A DNA stretch of 43,426 nucleotides, taken from Candidatus Chloroploca mongolica. GTDB taxonomy: Bacteria > Chloroflexota > Chloroflexia > Chloroflexales > Chloroflexaceae. The number at the start of each line of letters is the position of its first letter. Position 1 is the first letter of the stretch. A program made the translations under genes and the position numbers. Below, one piece after another: positions 30,151-33,969 of this stretch. The notes under the pieces were generated by a model. The model did no database searches and was not told the DNA's origin. It saw nothing but the letters and a program-made list of their open reading frames with translations. The DNA is taken from positions 1 through 43,426 of the forward strand of contig NZ_SIJK02000041.1 of assembly GCF_004762035.2 (NCBI RefSeq), given 5' to 3'.

Positions 30151-31251
30151 ATGCTCATTGTTCGAGGCATTGCGGTGGTACTTCTCGTAGGACTACTGCT
30201 CATTCAATTTCTGCATCTCCGTGGGCCACGGGTGCTCGATCTTCCCCCACAGCAGACCGTCGTTACCTGCAATGATCGCATTGGCCTGCACACGCGGCTT
30301 ACGGGCATTGGTGACGAGGCCTATATTCGCGGTGCGTTGGAGCAGGTACGCGCGATGGGAGCGCCGTGGATTGTCGAGCTCTTTCCGTGGGCGTATGTGC
30401 AACCGCGCTCGCGGTACGGCTACGACTGGGTCGGGGCGGATCTGGTGATCGAGCATGCGCGGCGTCAGGGGCTAACCGTGGTTGCCCGGCTTGACCTAGT
30501 ACCAGGCTGGGCGAGGCCGGCGAACACGACCGACCGCTACCTCGATCCTGACTTTTACGACGACTATGCGGCCTACGTAGCCGCCTTTGCCGAGCGCTAC
30601 GCCCCGCTGGGAGTACAGCACCTAATCATCTGGAACGAACCGAACCTCCGCTTTGAATGGGGCGAACGTCCGCCGGACCCTGGTGCCTATGCCGCCTTGC
30701 TCAAAGTCGTCTATCCGGCGGTCAAAGCAGTTGCCCCAGAGGCAATCATTATTGCCGGGGCACTCTCGCCGGGAACCTCGCTGGAAGATGGCGCAAGTCG
30801 GATGGATGACATGCAATACCTAGCCTCACTGTACGATGCCGAAGCGGGGCCATACTTTGATATGTGGGCCGTGCATGCGTATGGGGGGCAAGAGCCGCCG
30901 GACGCACCGCCGGGGTCTGAGCGGGTCAACTTTCGGCGCATCGAACTGGTACGAGCGATGCTTGACGATTTTGGTGACCACGACAAACGCCTCATCATCA
31001 CCGAAGGTGGCTACAACGACCACCCGCGCTGGAGTGCAGCGGTACGCCCGGCTGACCGCGTACGCTGGACGATAGCCATGTACGAGCAAGCGCGCAGCTA
31101 CCCGTGGCTCGAAGCAGTTGCGTTATGGCAACACAGCACACCGTTTGCGACGCGCTCGTACCCGGATGCCTGGAACTTTGTTGCCCCTGACGGCACCCCG
31201 CGAGCCGTCTATCTCGCCGTCCAGGAGTATGCTTTTGCGTGTGGTGAATGA
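30151..31251 (+). CDS. Clan-A glycoside hydrolase-like protein, membrane-anchored
   Basis: This protein of 366 residues starts with an uncleaved-looking membrane helix (IVRGIAVVLLVGLLLIQFL, about residues 3-21). The rest resembles a TIM-barrel hydrolase of clan GH-A (GH5/GH39-like). IIWNEPNLRF holds the likely acid/base glutamate, and RLIITEGGYND holds the likely nucleophile glutamate. The frame is open far upstream to 29788 across the desaturase gene, but the homology-free part there is antisense. ATG 30151 has AAGG at good distance; ATG 30145 is the alternative. Its final codons and stop lie inside a 22-bp hairpin. The substrate is unknown. Confidence 0.78.
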   Translation: MLIVRGIAVVLLVGLLLIQFLHLRGPRVLDLPPQQTVVTCNDRIGLHTRLTGIGDEAYIRGALEQVRAMGAPWIVELFPWAYVQPRSRYGYDWVGADLVIEHARRQGLTVVARLDLVPGWARPANTTDRYLDPDFYDDYAAYVAAFAERYAPLGVQHLIIWNEPNLRFEWGERPPDPGAYAALLKVVYPAVKAVAPEAIIIAGALSPGTSLEDGASRMDDMQYLASLYDAEAGPYFDMWAVHAYGGQEPPDAPPGSERVNFRRIELVRAMLDDFGDHDKRLIITEGGYNDHPRWSAAVRPADRVRWTIAMYEQARSYPWLEAVALWQHSTPFATRSYPDAWNFVAPDGTPRAVYLAVQEYAFACGE

Positions 31252-31283
31252 GGCCAGCAAAGCTGGCCTCATTCACCACACGC
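31237..31283. terminator. Perfect 22-bp hairpin, loop AAA, containing the stop codon
   Basis: Arms 31237-31258 and 31262-31283 are perfectly complementary. The left arm includes the last codons and the TGA (31249-31251) of the glycoside hydrolase-like gene. The core GCCAGC-AAA-GCTGGC is shared with three other hairpins. It is probably a terminator or 3'-protecting element. Confidence 0.78.
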
Positions 31284-31320
31284 GGGCGAGATGGACAGAG
31301 GTTGTCGCCAGCACAGGTGC

Positions 31321-31349
31321 TTGACAAAACACCCTCGCAGGCATACAAT
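31321..31349 (+). promoter_or_regulatory. Strong sigma-70 promoter of the mgtE leader
   Basis: TTGACA at 31321-31326 and TACAAT at 31344-31349 have an ideal 17-bp spacer. Transcription would begin near 31356, about 27 nt before the riboswitch and about 550 nt before mgtE. Confidence 0.8.
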
Positions 31350-31382
31350 TTGGCCATAGAGAGTGAAATATGCAGCGATGCT

Positions 31383-31532
31383 CCTTCGTTAGGCGCGGCG
31401 CTCCCACAAACAAAGGTCATTGCCTCGGCCCGTCGAGAGACGCTCAGAGGTACACGGCACTTCTCGGCTTAAGGGATGTGTTAAGATGACTGCAGCACGA
31501 CTGCTACGTTGTGGGAACGCTTAAGCTCAACC
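31383..31532 (+). promoter_or_regulatory. M-box (ykoK leader) magnesium riboswitch
   Basis: The leader begins CTTCGTTAGGCGCGGC, which matches the start of the M-box aptamer of Bacillus mgtE. It continues with a CCCACAA arm (31393-31399) that pairs with TTGTGGG near 31509-31515, the conserved GACGCTCAGAGG region near 31439, and ends GAACGCTTAAGCTC. M-boxes bind Mg2+ and usually stop transcription of Mg2+ transporters when Mg2+ is high. Its position between a strong promoter and mgtE fits exactly. The boundaries are approximate. Confidence 0.85.
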
Positions 31533-31533
31533 A

Positions 31534-31600
31534 GGGGGGAGTTCATCAGCTTTTCTTTTGCTGATGCCCCCCACATGTGCATGTGAGGGGCATTTCGTTT
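31534..31600 (+). terminator. M-box expression platform: terminator and competing antiterminator
   Basis: GGGGGG (31534-31539) with CATCAGC (31544-31550) can pair with GCTGATGCCCCCC (31560-31572). The same C-rich stretch is also the left arm of a 13-bp stem (31565-31577 with 31580-31592, one mismatch) followed by TTTCGTTT. The two structures exclude each other, which is the expected switch of a transcription-controlling riboswitch. Confidence 0.7.
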
Positions 31601-31613
31601 ATCTGGAAGGAAT

Positions 31614-31712
31614 ATGGACGTTAGTAGTCATTCACGGCGGCGCGGTGTCGCGCATACAACCGCTCTGAGAATTGCTCTCCCTGCCTGTGCCTCCACGGTG
31701 GGCGTGTGCTGA
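31614..31712 (+). CDS. Short leader ORF between two terminators
   Basis: An ATG at 31614 follows GGAAGG and opens a 32-codon frame that ends at TGA 31710-31712. It begins MDVSSHSRRRGVAH. The frame lies between the M-box terminator and a second intrinsic terminator, 29 nt before the latter. It may be a leader peptide whose translation sets the second terminator, as with the short ORF before Salmonella mgtA. No homologue is recognised, so this may also be a chance frame. Confidence 0.35.
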   Translation: MDVSSHSRRRGVAHTTALRIALPACASTVGVC

Positions 31713-31740
31713 TGACTGCATGCCCCTGATGTTGCCTCAG

Positions 31741-31771
31741 ACCTGGTGAGCGTTGCTCCACCGGGTTTTTT
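31741..31771 (+). terminator. Second intrinsic terminator in the mgtE leader
   Basis: Arms 31741-31751 and 31755-31766 form an 11-bp stem with one bulged C and loop GTT, followed by six T (31766-31771). It is a canonical intrinsic terminator lying 130 bp before mgtE, so it must be regulated or leaky. The part between it and the start (31772-31902) holds no other clear signal. Confidence 0.75.
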
Positions 31772-31902
31772 GTTCCCTCTGGAGTCGGTTGTACCGGCGA
31801 TCTGCCTCTGGTTGGCCTTTGTGCCGACCCCGCGCCATGCTTCTATCACGTTGCACACGGCACACAACAGTGCATGTTGCATGCATATAGCGGGGGGGAA
31901 CC

Positions 31903-33255
31903 ATGACCACGTTTCCGAGCACCAACGTTGAGGATGTCCGCACACTCGTTGCTGACCGCCAACTGGCCGAATTGCGTGCCATGCTTGCATTCTGGCCCGA
32001 GCCTGAAGTGGCCGATCTGCTGATGGAATTGAACCCCACCGAGCAGATGGTCGTCTTTCGCTTGCTGCCACGCCAGATCTCAAGTGAAGTCTTTACCCAC
32101 CTTGATACCGAGCAGCAGAATGAGCTTTTGACCCAACTGAACAGCGAAGAGACCCGGCATTTGCTGGCGAATCTGAGTCCTGATGACCGAACGCAACTCT
32201 TTGAAGAATTGCCGGGCCAGGCGACCCAGAAATTGCTCAATCTGCTTGGCCCTGAGGATCTGCGTGAAGCGCGTCAGTTGCTCGGCTACCCCGAAGAGAG
32301 TGTCGGGCGCTTGATGACCCCCGACTATGTCGCGGTTCGCCCTACTTGGACGATCTCACAGGCGTTACATCATATTCGTACGCGAGGGCGCGACAGTGAA
32401 ACGATCAATACGATCTATGTTACCGACGGCCGCTGGCGCTTTCTTGATGCGATTGATCTGCGGCGTTTCATTATGGCCGAGCCAGAGCAAACGGTCGAAC
32501 AGATTATGGATCGGGCCTATATTGTGCTTTCGGCCTTTGATGACCGCGAGCAAGCTGTGCGAGCGTTGCGCCGCTATGACCTGGCCTCGTTGCCGGTCGT
32601 TGACTCGGATGGCGTATTGGTGGGCATTGTCACCTTCGATGACCTGATCGATGTCGCCGACGAAGAGACGACCGAGGACTTCCACAAGAGCGCGGCGGTG
32701 GCCCCGCTACGGGCAAGCTATTCTGAAACGGGCATTCGCGAACTGGTGATGAAGCGTGCGCCGTGGCTGATTGTGCTGGTTTTTGTGAATATTTTTTCGG
32801 GGGCGATTATTGCCGCGTTTGAGGATACGATTGCAGCGGTGGTGGCCCTGGTCTTCTTTATGCCGTTGCTGATCGCGAGTAGCGGCAATGCCGGATCGCA
32901 ATCGGCGACCCTGATGGTGCGGGCGATGGCGATGGGCGATATCAAGAAGAGTGACTGGGCGCGTTCGTTGCGCAAAGAGGTGCTGGTTTCTGCGCTGCTT
33001 GGCGTCTCGATGGCCGTGGCTGTCTGGCTGGTCGCTTTCTTCCGTACTGGATCCGAGGTGGCAATGGTGGTATCGCTGACGATGATCATCATTGTCATTG
33101 CCGGGAGCCTGATCGGAACGGTACTACCCTTTATTTTGAGTCGTTTTGGCCTGGATCCGGCGACGGCCAGTGGGCCCTTGATCACGTCGCTCTCGGATAT
33201 TGCCGGGGTCTTGATCTACTTCTCGCTGGCGACCTGGTTGCTCGGCATTGTGTGA
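31903..33255 (+). CDS. mgtE: Magnesium transporter MgtE
   Basis: This 450-residue Mg2+ channel has the MgtE N domain (about residues 1-125, with helical repeats such as LANLSPDDRTQLFEELP), two CBS domains at about 130-255 that sense cytoplasmic Mg2+, and five membrane helices from about 280 to 450. The pore region includes FFMPLLIASSGNAGSQSATL, the conserved Mg2+-selective stretch. ATG 31903 follows GGGGGGGA. It is controlled by the M-box leader. A long hairpin follows the stop. Confidence 0.95.
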   Translation: MTTFPSTNVEDVRTLVADRQLAELRAMLAFWPEPEVADLLMELNPTEQMVVFRLLPRQISSEVFTHLDTEQQNELLTQLNSEETRHLLANLSPDDRTQLFEELPGQATQKLLNLLGPEDLREARQLLGYPEESVGRLMTPDYVAVRPTWTISQALHHIRTRGRDSETINTIYVTDGRWRFLDAIDLRRFIMAEPEQTVEQIMDRAYIVLSAFDDREQAVRALRRYDLASLPVVDSDGVLVGIVTFDDLIDVADEETTEDFHKSAAVAPLRASYSETGIRELVMKRAPWLIVLVFVNIFSGAIIAAFEDTIAAVVALVFFMPLLIASSGNAGSQSATLMVRAMAMGDIKKSDWARSLRKEVLVSALLGVSMAVAVWLVAFFRTGSEVAMVVSLTMIIIVIAGSLIGTVLPFILSRFGLDPATASGPLITSLSDIAGVLIYFSLATWLLGIV

Positions 33256-33268
33256 GGGTTCTCGCCTT

Positions 33269-33324
33269 GATCATGCAAAGAGGAAGCGGCCAGATGTATC
33301 TGGCCGCTTCCTCTTTGCATGATC
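33269..33324. terminator. Perfect 25-bp hairpin, 6-base loop, between convergent genes
   Basis: Arms 33269-33293 and 33300-33324 are perfectly complementary with ATGTAT between them. It fills the gap between mgtE and the reverse-strand hydrolase; the right arm touches that gene's stop codon (33325). It is likely a bidirectional terminator. Confidence 0.8.
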
Positions 33325-33969
33325 TTACGCTTCGTAGCCGCGCCCTGCGGCGGCGACCGCCTCGCCGCCACCAAGGGCCGCAAGGAAATCGTCGTGCGTC
33401 ATTGGCCGCGAGAACATGGGGAAGTCCTTGGTTGTCGCCATTTCTTGTTCTTCGGGGCTAAGCGTGGCGGTGCAGTTGGTGAGCGTAATCACGCTGTAGC
33501 CAAGCTCGTAGGCGGTGCGCATTGTTGACTCAACGCAGCAGTTGGTCAAAAAGCCGGCCAGGGCGACAGTCTTGATGCCGCGCTGACGCAGGATGAAATC
33601 GAGGTTGGTACTGGCGAAGCCGCAGAGCCCGCGCTTGCCCTCGACGACCAGATCGCCAGCCTGGGGTGTCATAATGTCAATGATCTGCGCCCCCCAGGTG
33701 CCTTTGCGAAACGAATTGCTGTCAACGACGCCCTTGAGAATGCCATAGGGCTCGGTGGGCAGCTCGGGATAGCCTTCGGCGAAACTGATGGGCGCGTGAA
33801 TGACGATTGCGCCAAGCTCGCGGGCCTGGGTTGCCAGTTCAACCGCGTTGGCGAGCATGTTATTCTGGGCCATGACCCCTTTCACCGCATCGTGAAGCGT
33901 TCCACCCTCCGACGTGAAGTCGTTCTGAAACTCGATCAAGACCACCGCAGTCGTTTTCGGATCCATCAT
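33325..33969 (-). CDS. Isochorismatase-family cysteine hydrolase
   Basis: This 214-residue cytoplasmic enzyme has the alpha/beta fold of the isochorismatase/nicotinamidase family. The likely catalytic triad is Asp in VVLIEFQNDF near residue 16, Lys in VEGKRGLCGF near residue 110 and Cys in GFLTNCCVEST near residue 145. Members hydrolyse small amides or ureas, such as nicotinamide, biuret or peroxyureidoacrylate; the substrate here is not known. ATG 33969 has AGGAG five bases before it; the next codon is also ATG. The frame is open to 34005 without a good start. It has its own strong promoter and a structured leader. Confidence 0.88.
   Translation of the reverse strand: MMDPKTTAVVLIEFQNDFTSEGGTLHDAVKGVMAQNNMLANAVELATQARELGAIVIHAPISFAEGYPELPTEPYGILKGVVDSNSFRKGTWGAQIIDIMTPQAGDLVVEGKRGLCGFASTNLDFILRQRGIKTVALAGFLTNCCVESTMRTAYELGYSVITLTNCTATLSPEEQEMATTKDFPMFSRPMTHDDFLAALGGGEAVAAAGRGYEA

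Follow-up and report, generated by a model that had tools for sequence, protein, structure and literature searches.

A putative leader-peptide attenuator in series with an M-box riboswitch upstream of mgtE in Candidatus Chloroploca mongolica and related bacteria

The leader of the magnesium transporter gene mgtE in Candidatus Chloroploca mongolica probably carries two transcription attenuators in series, an M-box riboswitch and then a leader-peptide attenuator that would sense low Mg2+ via the ribosome. The leader lies in a 43,426-nucleotide stretch of DNA (contig NZ_SIJK02000041.1), hereafter called the window; all coordinates refer to it. The proposal would join RNA folding and ribosome stability, two magnesium-sensing principles, in one leader, and it gives the conserved and so far unexplained ORFs found behind M-boxes a testable role in cis.

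Architecture of the mgtE leader

An initial annotation of the window had described positions 31321-31902 as an mgtE leader with a near-consensus promoter, an M-box aptamer, mutually exclusive hairpins and a second, classical terminator with six T, and both the coordinates and the description were confirmed. The features given below are all on the + strand. The promoter (31321-31349) is sigma-70-like, reads TTGACA-17-TACAAT and agrees with the consensus at 11 of 12 positions; in a consensus scan of 30900-33600 it was the sole + strand site, with three sites on both strands against 1.0 expected. A covariance search with cmscan, which the annotation had called for, assigned 31378-31544 to the M-box (ykoK, RF00380) magnesium riboswitch aptamer with 119 bits and an E-value of 3.4e-26, well above the gathering score of 44 that defines membership of the family. 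This was the one RF00380 match across the genome, and a tandem M-box was rejected. Shortly 5' of the promoter, at the end of the upstream gene, we also observed a perfect 22-bp inverted repeat with a 3-nt loop and without a T-run (31237-31283).

A predicted antiterminator, AT1 (31534-31572; -22.0 kcal/mol for the fold of 31533-31572), would recruit the P1 3' strand (31534-31541) together with the 5' arm of a terminator hairpin. The M-box terminator T1 (31563-31600; -19.3 kcal/mol) consists of a hairpin at 31563-31594 and a T-rich tail to 31600. AT1 and T1 are mutually exclusive since positions 31563-31572 are common to both, and these overlapping predicted hairpins have the form of an M-box expression platform with exclusive P1, AT1 and T1. 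The T1 region (31560-31610) folded at -19.7 with a z-score of -2.17, and the joint fold of 31533-31600 retained T1, not AT1.

Behind T1, a Shine-Dalgarno sequence (GGAAGGA, 31605-31611) precedes a short ORF of 32 codons with an ATG start (31614-31712), whose predicted leader peptide is MDVSSHSRRRGVAHTTALRIALPACASTVGVC. The second intrinsic terminator T2 (31740-31771) follows, with a hairpin at 31740-31767 and TTTTTT at 31766-31771; the fold of 31736-31780 reached -17.3 kcal/mol (z-score -3.54), and none of 200 shuffled sequences was equally stable. An ORF with a ribosome-binding site ahead of an intrinsic terminator is the arrangement of a leader-peptide attenuator. In folds of this region, GCTCTCC within the short ORF (31674-31680) forms the 5' strand, and GGTGAGC (31745-31751), which is the 5' arm of T2, the 3' strand of a predicted second antiterminator, AT2, which encloses a hairpin containing the stop codon of the short ORF (31700-31725). 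Note that both T1 and T2 were absent from the list of an automated terminator scan of the window; each stem has a mismatch or a bulge.

The mgtE gene itself (31903-33255) encodes 450 amino acids with the Pfam domains MgtE_N, CBS and MgtE, and is preceded by the Shine-Dalgarno sequence GGGGGGG (31892-31898). A separate promoter between 31772 and 31903 had, like the lack of an M-box match, been named in the annotation as evidence against its reading; the M-box match is strong, and the consensus scan gave no + strand sigma-70-like site in that interval, which is weak evidence and bears on sites of that type only. A second riboswitch between T1 and mgtE was rejected as well, as the best other Rfam match in 31300-31960 had an E-value of 0.34 and 14.9 bits against a cut-off of 50, even at permissive E-values. 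Directly 3' of T2, GTTCCCTC (31772-31779) can pair with the mgtE Shine-Dalgarno region (31889-31898; fold, z-score -1.46), and this pairing might possibly constitute a third, translational control layer. A perfect 27-bp inverted repeat with a 2-nt loop (33269-33324) lies directly 3' of mgtE between convergent reading frames.

The short ORF and second terminator in Chloroflexales

Of 82 genomes from the order Chloroflexales, 23 contained RF00380, with 25 matches in total. A short ORF 3' of T1 was assigned in all 25 leaders, with start codons partly picked by eye, and 24 of these ORFs begin with M-D or M-E (one with a TTG start), the exception being MAH in L017. Residue 3 is D, E, G or A in 20 of the 25, and an Arg cluster often comes next, as in MDEGGHRSQRR and MDDGHPGRRC, and in MDVSSHSRRR of the window. 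We found no protein-level constraint on the whole peptide: single-change codon pairs numbered 35 synonymous and 118 non-synonymous in one clade and 1 and 25 in another, and the 5 and 1 pairs of the window genus are too few to judge. An identical short ORF occurs in L016 (G023, the same family as the window genome) and in L109, from an uncultured Oscillochloris of the same order.

A terminator of -14 kcal/mol or lower was found within 110 nt of the ORF stop in 22 of the 25 M-box leaders against 0.9 expected from shuffles, and the same hairpin and T-run scan with a cut-off of -9 kcal/mol gave 22 against 4.1. The T-run starts 43-53 nt past the stop codon in 18 of these 22 leaders, whose ORFs span 27-41 codons. 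An earlier count over longer stretches (19 of 25 against 9.6 expected) was weaker than the count limited to 110 nt. The scan found no T2 within 110 nt of the ORF stop in L008, L015 and L044, and in L009 and L010 it reported a neighbouring hairpin, other than the one used in the AT2 folds. Within the window genus, each of the three genomes searched retains both the ORF and T2. These sequence comparisons support the view that T2 is no oddity of the window and that, in the relatives, its position follows that of the short ORF's stop codon. Among five genes 3' of M-boxes of the order that were inspected with Pfam, three were MgtE. In Chloroflexota, an ABC-type permease lies 3' of the M-box in L042 (PF00528) and, judged by eye, in L025, and may represent a further class of magnesium transporter.

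We next consider AT2. To represent a transcript in which the 3' arm of T2 is still missing, RNA that starts at codon 11 of the ORF and ends with the T2 5' arm was folded; L008 and L017 have no T2 hairpin string and were excluded. In 22 of 23 leaders of the order, L002 being the exception, the T2 arm paired with the 3' portion of the ORF in the region of the stop codon, and in L044 the stop codon lies within the AT2 helix itself. When folds were begun 12 nt past the ORF stop, T2 formed in 23 of 23. Pairing of AT2 5' of the stop ranked within the top 10 of 200 shuffles in 15 of the 23 leaders. In the window and its two congeners it was no better than in shuffles (ranks 49, 62 and 54 of 200; 67, 82 and 59 in a second run), and L014 (11), L018 (26), L040 (26), L043 (18) and L044 (64) also fell outside the top 10. 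A direct search for duplexes that could form AT2 in the window and the congeners returned nothing (z-scores +0.9 to +1.0). The helix that folding to the T2 5' arm gives in the window is weak (GCUCUCC against GGUGAGC, with one U-U mismatch), and by reading of the folds its 5' strand resembles in position that of CCTCATCGG in the stand-alone leaders described below. In 11 leaders of three genera, the AT2 core has seven of seven pairs in ten leaders and six in one. Three core pairs covary on both sides (U-A/G-C, C-G/U-A and G-C/A-U exchanges), and a single change of the T2 arm in L002 is matched in both partners. Since the core strands were picked by eye, the shuffle test serves as the control.

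The same ORF and T2 also occur before mgtE where an M-box is absent. MgtE was searched in the window genome and 60 relatives, 45 of the 61 held one at an E-value of 1e-30 or lower, and 30 loci were returned and their leaders examined. Thirteen matches had at least about 70% identity, and one of them (G013:C194) was not returned as a locus, so that 12 orthologues were counted. The window genus accounts for three of them, and L313 corresponds to the M-box leader L018 of another genus. A contig end truncates one, another lacks such a leader, and the remaining six (L316-L321, 70-72% identity) have the short ORF and T2 and no M-box. T2 lies 46-54 nt past the ORF stop in these six (43 in L316), the ORFs start with MDSSHSRQRQSVV... 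or MDGSHTGQRRS..., and a promoter-like TTGACA with TATAGT or TATACT is readable upstream in L316-L320. At lower identity, L322 (52-53%) has the ORF and no T-run, and the other 17 mgtE loci (36% or less) showed no ORF-T2 unit. No Rfam family reached the gathering score in L316-L320 and L322, and a search with stricter filters gave no M-box match in the genome that holds L321 (G022). Four of these six leaders had AT2 ranks of 0-4 of 200, and the remaining two had ranks of 28 and 29.

Because the ORF-T2 unit is present before six mgtE orthologues without an M-box, it appears to be a regulator of its own. These leaders are the strongest argument against T2 as a spare terminator of the riboswitch, and they permit study of the putative second sensor apart from the M-box. 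The annotation had suggested that T2 is a separate switch answering to another signal; the former part is supported by T2 tracking the ORF stop and by ORF-T2 leaders without an M-box in other genera, and the latter is the less likely reading of the signal. At the level of sequence and comparison, both predicted terminators, the ORF, the spacing between its stop and T2, AT2 pairing in the relatives and the independence of the second module are thereby established.

Acidic and proline-containing ORFs behind M-boxes in other phyla

An M-box core pattern run over GTDB genomes gave 118 stretches (L047-L164), 80 of which (L047-L126) were used; the other 38 were counted later only. ORFs at such loci in Bacillota and Actinomycetota start with MDSGP, MDDSP, MDSSPEP, MSSDSSP and the like. 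By a fixed rule, 33 ORFs were found in 59 leaders with room for one, and 26 and 9 of them have at least two and at least three D/E/P, respectively, in residues 2-7. These thresholds were set on L001-L126 and then applied to other genomes, specifically to a test set of 111 leaders from the phyla of an Enterococcus genome (M-box in 88 of 249) and of a Mycobacterium genome (20 of 246). For Bacillota, 88 matches were used, after G467, G469 and G472 (genomes already seen) and five weak, partial or further-copy matches had been dropped; for Actinomycetota, 23 of 28 matches were used, and a genome already seen was dropped. Every test locus differs from all earlier loci in its M-box and in the 60 nt that follow, and related species in the set are not independent.

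In the test set, an ATG ORF of 8-70 codons preceded by a Shine-Dalgarno sequence was present in 62 of 95 leaders with room, against 17.4 expected from shuffles. Asp or Glu occurred in residues 2-5 of 52 of these ORFs, and 50 and 33 had at least two and at least three D/E/P in residues 2-7, a start that resembles that of the magnesium leader peptide MgtL. The same three counts were 31, 16 and 0 of 102 for main genes, 1, 3 and 1 of 27 for the reverse strand, 7, 6 and 1 of 43 for upstream sequence, and 97, 54 and 13 of 348 for shuffles. Grouping of similar peptides left 55 clusters, 29 of them with at least three D/E/P. Likewise, the 38 unseen pattern loci comprised 33 leaders with room and 11 ORFs, of which 10 had Asp or Glu in residues 2-5, 11 had at least two and 4 at least three D/E/P. 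Several codons are used for these amino acids (GAC 49, GAT 39; GAA 13, GAG 11; CCT 27, CCG 16, CCC 12, CCA 3), and the residues therefore look selected. An exception to this residue-level pattern is Ser, which is encoded by AGT in 33 of 52 cases in codons 2-8 and in 24 of 130 at the subsequent positions of these ORFs (p 1e-8).

The motif is not uniform. Under the strict rule of the test set, Chloroflexales scored lower (16 ORFs in 24 leaders with room, two with at least three D/E/P). The motif of the window peptide is weak, since D2 is its one acidic residue and proline is lacking in residues 2-7, and the stand-alone mgtE ORFs (MDSSHSR..., MDGSHTG...) share this weak acidic motif. In gammaproteobacterial M-box leaders, the fixed rule found a short ORF in none of ten (L059, L062, L079, L090, L099, L107, L112, L118, L123 and L126).

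For leaders whose ORF is acidic, the number with a T2, followed in brackets by the number expected over each group, was 4 of 47 (1.0) for Bacillota, 3 of 13 (1.2) for the other Chloroflexota, 1 of 32 (0.4) for the pattern loci from outside Chloroflexota and 4 of 9 (3.4) for Actinomycetota. Four Chloroflexota pattern loci were omitted from this general count as repeats, and L165-L194 stand outside all analyses. The T2 rule misses some cases, as L030, L031 and L035 (other Chloroflexota) show a terminator-like hairpin 260-301 nt past the M-box, behind the ORF. The idea that M-boxes in general are paired with a T2 was rejected, since T2 is common only in Chloroflexales and few leaders elsewhere have it. 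Of 44 test ORFs with at least two D/E/P and a known next gene, 7 run into that gene and 28 stop at most 60 nt away from it; the output there must therefore mostly differ from T2. Four Bacillota cases were folded. L087 and L288 have the AT2 layout, with an MDGAP or MDAGP ORF behind the M-box and pairing between that ORF and the 5' arm of T2; L289 and L290 do not show it.

Proposed mechanism, alternatives and known systems

In the first layer of the proposed mechanism, the Mg2+-bound aptamer would hold P1, so that AT1 could not form and T1 would terminate transcription. Transcripts that pass T1 would reach the putative leader-peptide attenuator composed of the short ORF, AT2 and T2. Once the ribosome has reached the stop codon, it would mask or open the 5' strand of AT2, T2 would fold and transcription would end, whereas early drop-off or halting of the ribosome would let AT2 capture the 5' arm of T2 and allow read-through to mgtE. 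For the relatives, the folding model accordingly predicts termination at T2 after complete translation and read-through after early loss of the ribosome. We infer that the short ORF is translated, that AT2 functions in the window genus despite its weak pairing, and that low Mg2+ is the signal acting on the ribosome, as in MgtL. With low Mg2+ assumed as the signal of the ribosome layer, the M-box and ORF-T2 would give the same sign, and therefore both layers would switch on at low Mg2+.

The ORF-T2 unit could also be a leader-peptide attenuator for a signal other than Mg2+, such as charging of Arg, His or Ser tRNA or the general translation rate. The window ORF has three consecutive Arg codons, Arg pairs recur in many relatives of the order, the early AGT bias for Ser is a codon-level feature beyond the reach of a model based on residues alone, and the tandem attenuators of Salmonella mgtCBR respond to ATP and proline according to the available part of that report (PMC3641672). 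An amino-acid-type attenuator is, however, marked by a run of codons for the sensed residue, and beyond the three Arg codons of the window no such run common to the family was seen by eye; the feature common to the Bacillota and Actinomycetota test set is early Asp, Glu or Pro, and the downstream genes that Pfam identified in the order were MgtE in three of five, not amino acid genes. We regard this alternative as unlikely, and the second switch more likely reads the same ion, Mg2+, via the ribosome than a different signal such as tRNA charging or translation factors.

Far less probable is a T2 that acts as a fail-safe or as the end of a small mRNA for a peptide acting in trans on the transporter, with mgtE transcribed by leakage or from another promoter. 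T2 is strong, unusual promoters would be compatible with our promoter scan, and the mycobacterial Rv1805A has been proposed as a regulatory peptide or transporter part (PMC12810186, in excerpt). Yet the peptide is not conserved past its first codons while the distance from stop to T2 is nearly constant, AT2 pairing in relatives would serve no fail-safe role, and no + strand sigma-70-like site lies between T2 and mgtE. Least probable of all, to the point of being hardly credible, is a single switch with T1 as the sole regulated terminator and the remainder as untranslated filler. The rank of the window AT2 among shuffles fits it, but the z-score of T2 and the retention of ORF and T2 in three window-genus genomes and six mgtE orthologues lacking an M-box speak against it. 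Serial attenuation by the M-box and a ribosome-based sensor is our preferred reading of the leader.

The window leader resembles that of Bacillus subtilis mgtE in its M-box (ykoK, RF00380) aptamer, the exchange of P1, antiterminator and terminator, and mgtE downstream. The B. subtilis form described in PMC12810186 and PMC4072509 has one intrinsic terminator, and the window leader adds a putative second attenuator. The putative second layer is closest to MgtL. As described in PMC11282234, E. coli MgtL has an EPDP motif at which the ribosome falls off in low Mg2+; refolding of the RNA then allows transcription of mgtA, and termination becomes possible when translation runs to completion. In Salmonella and E. 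coli alike, a short ORF thus precedes a magnesium transporter gene, with termination after full translation and expression after ribosome loss at an early acidic motif (PMC11282234). The mgtA leader also carries a Mg2+-responsive RNA in the same transcript, like the window (PMC4072509, in part). It differs in that its terminator is Rho-dependent and its RNA is not an M-box; T2 has the sequence of an intrinsic terminator with an AT2 hairpin, not a Rho-dependent output, and the window peptide, unlike MgtL, is without an EPDP-type motif.

Salmonella mgtCBR likewise has two serial attenuators in a magnesium-transport leader, but both use short ORFs, with ATP and proline as signals, and the M-box has no occurrence in the text of PMC3641672 available to us. 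A more distant likeness is the mammalian TRPM7 mRNA, where short upstream ORFs render synthesis of a magnesium channel responsive to Mg2+, through eukaryotic translation control and without transcription termination (PMC4227784, available part). In the literature covered, which excluded subscription journals and preprints, we found no report of an M-box riboswitch with a leader peptide, a second terminator or mgtL, nor of short ORFs behind M-boxes outside mycobacteria; priority for the combination is uncertain.

In mycobacteria, short ORFs between the M-box and the regulated genes are translated according to reporter or ribosome-protection data (PMC12810186 and PMC4974804, as excerpted). Specifically, M. 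abscessus mgtE has a ribosome-protected uORF with an M-box, in a report that cites tandem attenuators in magnesium leaders (PMC4974804, 2016, same excerpt), and in M. tuberculosis the conserved uORF rv1805A follows an M-box and encodes a peptide called mycobacteria-specific, with an unclear role (PMC12810186, 2026). The available text of the latter does not mention MgtL; it describes a translational platform and Rho-dependent termination, and no intrinsic second terminator, which differs from the window. In contrast to a mycobacteria-specific peptide, ORFs with similar acidic starts occur here after M-boxes of Bacillota and Chloroflexota. We tentatively suggest, with slightly more doubt than confidence, that M-boxes in Bacillota, Actinomycetota and Chloroflexota are commonly coupled to a further Mg2+ sensor that relies on the ribosome, in which a peptide with an Asp/Glu/Pro start would make ribosomes fall off at low Mg2+ and the outputs would vary, from an intrinsic T2 in Chloroflexales to overlap or coupling with the next gene elsewhere. 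Such leaders would act as two-step gates, and the MgtL principle would be general to magnesium leaders rather than an enterobacterial peculiarity.
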